From Alphaproteobacteria bacterium (GTDB taxonomy: Bacteria > Pseudomonadota > Alphaproteobacteria > Thalassobaculales > Thalassobaculaceae): DNA of 64,000 nt. The notes beneath the pieces were generated by a model that saw only the letters and a program-made list of their open reading frames with translations, ran no database searches and was not told the DNA's origin. The position numbers and the translations under genes are program-made. The stretch spans positions 1 to 64,000 of the forward strand of contig JANSYS010000014.1 in the NCBI GenBank assembly GCA_024742275.1. The letters are read 5' to 3'. This document shows, in pieces, positions 18,076-19,384 of the stretch (position 1 is the stretch's first letter; each line of letters opens with the position of its first letter).

Positions 18076-18813
18076 TCACGGGTCGGGACAGAGGCGAGGT
18101 TCCGGAATTCCGTCGACGGTGTCCTGAATCCCAGCGGAGTAGCGCGCTTTCAGGTCGAGGAAATAGGGATCATTATTCTTATACTTCATTAGGTTTGCGG
18201 TGGAGAAACTGTCGGTCGGGTAGCACAGCACGTCGATTGGCGGTCCAACCGACAGATTGCTCCGGATCGTCGCGTCGAAGGACACCAGCGCGAGCTTCGC
18301 CGCCCGGGCGAGCGTGTTGTCGAAGCGCAGCGCGCGGTCGAGGATCGGTTTGCCGTACTTGGTTTCGCCGATCTGCAGATAGTGATTGCGCGGCGTGGCC
18401 TCGACGAAGTTGCCCGCGGAATAGATCTGGAAGAGTCGCGGCGGCTCACCGCAAATCTGCCCGGCCAACAGGAATGTACCGTTCGGGTCGCCGAACCGCT
18501 CCACATAGGATCCGTCGCGCTCCAGAATCCGGCGCAGCAGGCCGCCGACGGTCTGCGCCACGTCAAACATGGAGTTGTGCAGGAACAGGTCGCGCTCCGG
18601 CGTGCCGGTTCCCGCCGCCTGTTTGAGCGTCGTGACGACGGTCTGGGTCGTCGCCAGGTTTCCGGCGGACAGCAGGGCGATAACCGCTTTATCGGGGTCC
18701 TCGAGGATCGCAAGCTTGCGCACGGTGGCGATCTGATCGACGCCCGCGTTGGTCCGGGAATCGGAAGCGAGCACAAGCCCCTCCGGCAGAAGGATGCCAA
18801 GGCAGTAGGTAAT
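18076..18813 (-). CDS. Anbu-type proteasome-like protease with apparent ATT start
   Basis: Anbu proteins are self-assembling N-terminal-nucleophile hydrolases related to HslV and proteasome beta subunits. Reading from 18813 the protein is (M)TYCLGILLPEGLVLASDS. After Met removal this gives Thr1, Asp17 and Lys32, the catalytic set of the family. The start codon at that place is ATT. Between it and the in-frame TGA at 18841-18843 there is no ATG, GTG or TTG, while GGGGGAGA stands 7 bases upstream. The first standard codon, GTG at 18774, would remove Thr1. Usual Anbu partners (transglutaminase-like, alpha-E, ATP-grasp genes) are not adjacent. Product 245 aa. Confidence 0.8.
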   Translation of the reverse strand: MTYCLGILLPEGLVLASDSRTNAGVDQIATVRKLAILEDPDKAVIALLSAGNLATTQTVVTTLKQAAGTGTPERDLFLHNSMFDVAQTVGGLLRRILERDGSYVERFGDPNGTFLLAGQICGEPPRLFQIYSAGNFVEATPRNHYLQIGETKYGKPILDRALRFDNTLARAAKLALVSFDATIRSNLSVGPPIDVLCYPTDSFSTANLMKYKNNDPYFLDLKARYSAGIQDTVDGIPEPRLCPDP

Positions 18814-18901
18814 CGGAGCGTCTCCCCCTGATCCCGGCCATCATCTTCTTTTCACAGCAGACCGGATCGCGACACGTTGACGACACCCAGCCCCGGATGC
18901 A

Positions 18902-19384
18902 ATGCCGTCTCACATGACGCTGCGAAAACGATTGCTGATCGTCGTCCATGCCCCATCGGCCAATACCCGGCGGTTGCGCGACGCGGTCGAAGACGGGGCC
19001 CGGAGCGAGGACGTGGAGACCGTCGACACCACCATTCTGTCCCCGTTCGATACGGGCCCGGAGCATGTGATTGAGGCCGACGCCCTGATCCTCGGAACCA
19101 CCGAGAATCTCGGATACATGAGCGGGGCGCTGAAGGACTTCTTCGACCGCTGCTACTACCCGTGCCTTGAGGAGACCCAGGGAAAACCCTACGCCCTATT
19201 TATCCGCGCCGGGCACGACGGCACCGGGACGCGTCGCGGCGTCGAAACGATCGCCACCGGGCTGCGCTGGAGGACCGTGCAGGAACCCCTTCTGCTGCGT
19301 GGGCCATGGGAAGACGCTTTTATCGATCGAACACGTCGTCTTGGCCACTACATGGCGGCGAGCCTCGAAGCGGGCGTGATCTAG
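18902..19384 (+). CDS. Flavodoxin-like / NADPH-dependent FMN reductase-type protein
   Basis: The 160-residue protein has a flavodoxin-like Rossmann core: RLLIVVHAPSANTRRL near the start for the FMN phosphate loop, ADALILGTTENLGYMSGALK near residue 60, and DRCYYPCLEETQGKPYALF near residue 82. It probably binds FMN and acts in electron transfer or quinone reduction. An internal ATG at 18914 (MTLRKRLL) is an alternative start. It is divergent from the Anbu gene, with about 90 bases between. Confidence 0.8.
   Translation: MPSHMTLRKRLLIVVHAPSANTRRLRDAVEDGARSEDVETVDTTILSPFDTGPEHVIEADALILGTTENLGYMSGALKDFFDRCYYPCLEETQGKPYALFIRAGHDGTGTRRGVETIATGLRWRTVQEPLLLRGPWEDAFIDRTRRLGHYMAASLEAGVI

Follow-up and report, generated by a model that had tools for sequence, protein, structure and literature searches.

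AUU start codons outside infC are already known, pcnB and Staphylococcus aureus cvfC1 being two cases. Such a codon is decoded by the initiator tRNA and gives the same product as AUG, with initiation that is weak or sensitive to IF3. The near-cognate start of infC is autoregulatory in Escherichia coli, and repression of the GTC start of sigR by IF3 has been demonstrated experimentally in Streptomyces (both from the accessible part of PMC5472188). The near-cognate starts of S. aureus, AUU in cvfC1 and AUA in ccpN and citZ, are backed by reporters and yield about 10 % of the AUG level in vivo in poor medium (PMC13009471, accessible part). Anbu proteases are described as having no propeptide, the methionine being taken off so that Thr1 is the nucleophile, and Alpha-E, ATP-grasp and transglutaminase genes are their frequent, though not obligatory, operon partners (PMC5666114, accessible part). 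The words 'start codon' do not occur in the main text of PMC5666114, and none of the papers among the matches listed deals with near-cognate initiation of Anbu.

The window, by which we mean the whole stretch of 64,000 nucleotides analysed here, carries the one Anbu gene of a genome of 4.69 Mb in 88 contigs. The gene has an ATT where a start codon is expected, and the features that bear on its initiation are as follows.

18076-18813, minus strand: Anbu protease gene, 245 codons and a stop when taken from the ATT, recognized by its translation, PF00227, the Anbu chains of the PDB and orthologues in three congeners

18811-18813, minus strand: ATT at the start-codon position, aligned with ATG, GTG or TTG in every relative read

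18808-18810, minus strand: ACC, which encodes Thr1, expected to be the nucleophile at the N-terminus (from the translation; role of Thr1 from the accessible part of PMC5666114)

18821-18828, minus strand: Shine–Dalgarno-like GGGGGAGA, 7 nt before the ATT

18841-18843, minus strand: in-frame TGA that bounds the frame upstream (sequence and translation)

18839-18844, minus strand: out-of-frame ATGATG whose first base lies 31 nt upstream of the ATT; its use would need a frameshift

18772-18774, minus strand: GTG at residue 13, the first canonical start downstream, 13 codons past the ATT and beyond Thr1

The identification as Anbu made in the first-pass annotation is borne out by a PF00227 profile match (27.6 bits against a cut-off of 22.4) and by matches to five distinct PDB Anbu sequences, 5loy (the best), 5lox, 5nyw, 5nyj and 5nyf, with E-values from 1.4e-74 to 1.5e-56 over query residues 2-239 or 2-233 of 245. 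These solved chains belong to the same protein family and align from the Thr that follows the start codon (residue 2) onward; unlike the 97 other Anbu genes, which begin with ATG, GTG or TTG, they do not allow the start codon to be read. The orthologues in the three congeners are 91.8–93.1 % identical. After the ATT the minus strand reads ACC TAC TGC CTT GGC ATC, of which the first three codons (Thr-Tyr-Cys) encode the conserved N-terminus of Anbu; the residues counted from Thr1 begin TYCLGILLPEGL. With ACC as Thr1, positions 17 and 32 of the translation are Asp and Lys, the spacing that had been claimed for a reading from the ATT; both residues, presumably catalytic, are conserved in an alignment of five rows. 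Thr stands directly after the ATT/ATG column in the alignment of the window gene with its congeners, a propeptide-less layout. Residues 20, 30, 48, 52 and 55 from Thr1 are T, V, S, L and T, which by eye resembles the Anbu-1 pocket (T, F, T, L, S) given in the accessible part of PMC5666114.

The ATT is the only plausible start for this frame. Between the TGA at 18843-18841 and the ATT lie nine in-frame codons (TGG, CCG, GGA, TCA, GGG, GGA, GAC, GCT and CCG), none of which is ATG, GTG, TTG or CTG, so that a canonical in-frame start upstream can be rejected. A start supplied by fusion or translational coupling to the upstream gene can likewise be dismissed, since that neighbour, an ORF with an FMN_red domain at 18902-19384 on the plus strand, is divergent from Anbu. 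GTG 18774 is indeed the next canonical start, as had been annotated, and being the first canonical codon in frame it could in principle open a shortened Anbu; its use would, however, delete Thr1 and 11 more residues, a block of 12 that is identical to that of the congener G004 protein, with all four nucleotide changes at third positions, which points to selection at the protein level there and makes initiation at the GTG highly improbable. We give equally little credence to a start at the ATGATG (18844-18839) with a frameshift at GGGGG into the Anbu frame: the ATG codons do lie shortly ahead of the G run, but the product would have an extension before Thr1, whereas Anbu is propeptide-less (accessible part of PMC5666114), and in the relatives read the position of the ATT is occupied by a canonical start. 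The description of the ATT as the apparent, rare start codon of an Anbu gene, with GGGGGAGA 7 nt ahead of it, is thus confirmed as an observation.

Among the six genomes of the genus, four, our own included, have Anbu. The alignment of close relatives that had been proposed, to see whether the ATT is kept, gave ATG at the aligned codon in each of the other three (G002, G003 and G004), so the ATT is kept in 0 of 3 congeners and evolution gives no proof of its use. Over 98 distinct Anbu places (three duplicates dropped; one contributing scan was limited to the best 80 of 375) the start codon is ATG in 83, GTG in 13, TTG in one and ATT in one, the window. A survey of the class found an Anbu match at E 1e-30 or better in 90 of 385 genomes, at 97 places; once the window and five places already covered are excluded, the remaining 91, some of which may overlap with the set of 98, begin with ATG (81), GTG (8) or TTG (2). 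G007, of another genus in the same family, has a leader of like shape with ATG, GGGGGAGATGCTTCGATG against GGGGGAGACGCTCCGATT in the window. The ATT is therefore private to this genome among the Anbu genes read, which does not support a conserved regulatory role, and it would have arisen most simply by a G-to-T change.

Some of the places surveyed deserve mention in their own right. G293:C1:1691462-1692190 and G285:C6:375642-376376 each have one internal stop (TGA and TAG respectively) and are possible decayed Anbu copies, and the Anbu of a related genome, G026 (contig C18, 159939-160665), is split between two matches, of 71 % and 57 % identity and with an overlap of a few bases, a pattern suggestive of a frameshift or sequencing error at that place. 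The two members of the genus that have no match to Anbu, G001 and G005, are single-contig genomes of 1.5 Mb that also have no match to HslV or Alpha-E, keep infC and one methionine aminopeptidase, and look like reduced, perhaps symbiont, genomes.

The window gene itself has no stop and no frameshift. Its dN/dS (NG86) is 0.055 to G004, 0.078 to G002 and 0.059 to G003, compared with 0.120 between the G002 and G004 genes, and dS to the congeners is about 0.7–0.9. Private changes on the window lineage number 34 synonymous and 9 nonsynonymous (G002, 12 and 6; G003, 31 and 14; G004, 15 and 7), the lowest ratio of nonsynonymous to synonymous changes among the four congeners. Over its branch, then, Anbu has been under strong purifying selection. 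ATG in all relatives together with decay of the gene here had been named beforehand as evidence against the ATT; the first half was seen, in 3 of 3 congeners, and the second was not.

These data bear most directly on the possibility that the start codon was lost recently, leaving the gene of a dispensable protease at an early stage of decay, with expression effectively nil or very low. Canonical codons (ATG, GTG or TTG) do open the other Anbu genes read, Anbu is reported to be dispensable in the absence of stress (accessible part of PMC5666114), and its absence from the two congeners of 1.5 Mb, with an internal stop in 2 of the 97 places of the class survey, indicates that the gene can be lost. 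Against this, the window gene shows no stop, frameshift or surplus of amino-acid changes, and near-cognate starts with a good Shine–Dalgarno sequence yield protein in S. aureus (accessible part of PMC13009471). The estimate of selection spans the entire branch, such that a very recent loss would go undetected, and we regard this explanation as unlikely without being negligible; with the gene looking intact despite its ATT, production of Anbu probably continues, though reduced.

Two further genes of the genus lack a canonical start. All six genomes start infC at a near-cognate codon, ATA in the two of 1.5 Mb and ATC in the four large ones, and all six leaders contain AGGAGG; our own copy is on contig C48 (about 66092-66094, plus strand). 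The second is a CP-ATP-grasp gene (PF14403, E 1.3e-158) on contig C70 of our genome, directly before Alpha-E and transglutaminase genes, in which no canonical start precedes the conserved N-terminus in any of the four congeners, our own included.

Contig C70, 23974-23976, plus strand: ATC, candidate start of the CP-ATP-grasp gene, with GGGAGG 5 nt upstream

This ATC aligns exactly with the ATG of the homologues in G007, G018 and G009, which represent two other genera of the family and are 63–64 % identical, and the N-terminus is variable in more distant relatives. Changes within the first 31 codons, counted from the ATC, are mostly at third positions, and the ATC is likely to be a conserved near-cognate start outside infC. 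The operon of Anbu with ATP-grasp, Alpha-E and transglutaminase genes is absent at the window locus, where the neighbours of Anbu are an RNA-methyltransferase-like gene and the FMN_red gene; those three are grouped on contig C70. A second ATP-grasp/Alpha-E set, fused in one frame of 809 codons that adjoins an ORF of 1148 codons, lies on contig C17 (about 78812-84654, plus strand).

How common such starts are was approached by a census of 0.70 Mb of the 4.69 Mb of our genome (G000) against matching stretches of G004, in regions picked by anchors (the window and matches to infC, HslV, methionine aminopeptidase and Alpha-E). An ORF was flagged when conservation of the sequence extended upstream beyond its first canonical start. 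A looser version was too noisy (at least 106 flags in G000 in one form and at least 129 flags in another) and the criteria were tightened; 515 ORF pairs were kept, of which 318 met strict coding criteria, and in these 11 distinct ORFs were flagged. We judge three of the 11, infC, CP-ATP-grasp and Anbu, to be putative near-cognate starts. They lie in regions fetched for them or for a neighbour, and no enrichment is claimed. The remaining candidates were set aside: four, on visual inspection, lie directly against an ordinary start codon, the ORFs at 77204-79153 (plus strand) and 75373-77892 (minus strand) of contig C37 overlap one another upstream and have an ordinary ATG further in, and those at 274332-274832 of C48 (plus strand) and 93019-93459 of C37 (minus strand) look spurious. 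The first of the C37 pair is an AMP-binding gene with its domain from residue 147; it too was flagged in G000 only, the G004 frame having an ATG at the aligned end.

The census also bears on whether the ATT is an error of sequencing or assembly, the true base giving ATG. A single base would suffice, the genome is a draft of 88 contigs and the only assembly of its species, and the relatives read have ATG, GTG or TTG. Against an error, among the 318 strict pairs Anbu is the only ORF judged to be without a start in G000 alone, as it is among the three near-cognate genes, and the 515 kept pairs contain three possible split genes, all of them low-identity or very short matches. We therefore consider a base error distinctly unlikely.

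The duplex energy of GGGGGAGA is −10.7, a stronger value than that of 87 % of the 230 census genes whose ATG is also present in G004; the anti-Shine–Dalgarno sequence in this calculation was assumed, because the 16S 3′ end, sought with a typed pattern, was found in two of the six genomes (G001 and G005) and not in our own. With the same assumption the ATG-started Anbu orthologues have energies of −8.6 to −12.1, a range that includes the window value, so there is no sign of compensation and a stronger Shine–Dalgarno sequence compensating for the ATT can be rejected. The predicted 70-nt fold around the start (−19.2) is the weakest of five compared, the others being −20.8 to −27.3, a small difference to which we attach no weight.

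We consider it probable that Anbu is functional here and that initiation at its AUU is genuine and weak. A single G-to-T change on the lineage of this species would have turned ATG into ATT; the Shine–Dalgarno sequence would place the 30S subunit, fMet-tRNA would initiate at the AUU less often than at AUG, and methionine aminopeptidase, for which the genome has a match over its cut-off, would remove the methionine and expose Thr1. Lower Anbu levels and sensitivity to IF3 are inferred from what is generally known of AUU starts, and fit the near-cognate infC starts of the genus. The output of about 10 % in S. aureus and the repression by IF3 elsewhere likewise lead us to expect a working Anbu gene with reduced output.

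The locus both resembles and departs from the described systems. With infC it shares a near-cognate AUH start (ATC in this genome) and a strong Shine–Dalgarno sequence, although that of infC is kept throughout the genus, the Anbu ATT is private and has no known feedback. The S. aureus starts are near-cognate like that of Anbu; they have reporter support, whereas that of Anbu is predicted from sequence. The AUA of citZ is lineage-specific, as is the ATT, but the starts of cvfC1 and ccpN are conserved between species and that of Anbu is not (accessible part of PMC13009471). The rare start of Streptomyces sigR, likewise a gene other than infC, may link it to IF3 (accessible part of PMC5472188), as is putatively so for Anbu. 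The sharing of putative rare starts by two genes of the Anbu system is suggestive but, in regions chosen by anchors, carries no statistical weight, and it is conceivable, if quite doubtful, that in this species Anbu (AUU) and CP-ATP-grasp (AUC throughout the genus) are set jointly by IF3-sensitive starts, in which case a shortage of IF3 relative to ribosomes would raise the output of protease and partner, much as for infC.

A practical consequence is that gene finders limited to ATG, GTG and TTG would call Anbu from GTG 18774 and drop the catalytic threonine, making a likely active protease appear dead. The conserved ATC of the partner gene CP-ATP-grasp is a by-product of more interest than the Anbu ATT itself. 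If these starts are used, one genus would combine two conserved near-cognate starts (ATC or ATA in infC, ATC in the ATP-grasp gene) with the private ATT of Anbu, and would offer a ready test of the tolerance and regulation of near-cognate starts outside infC.
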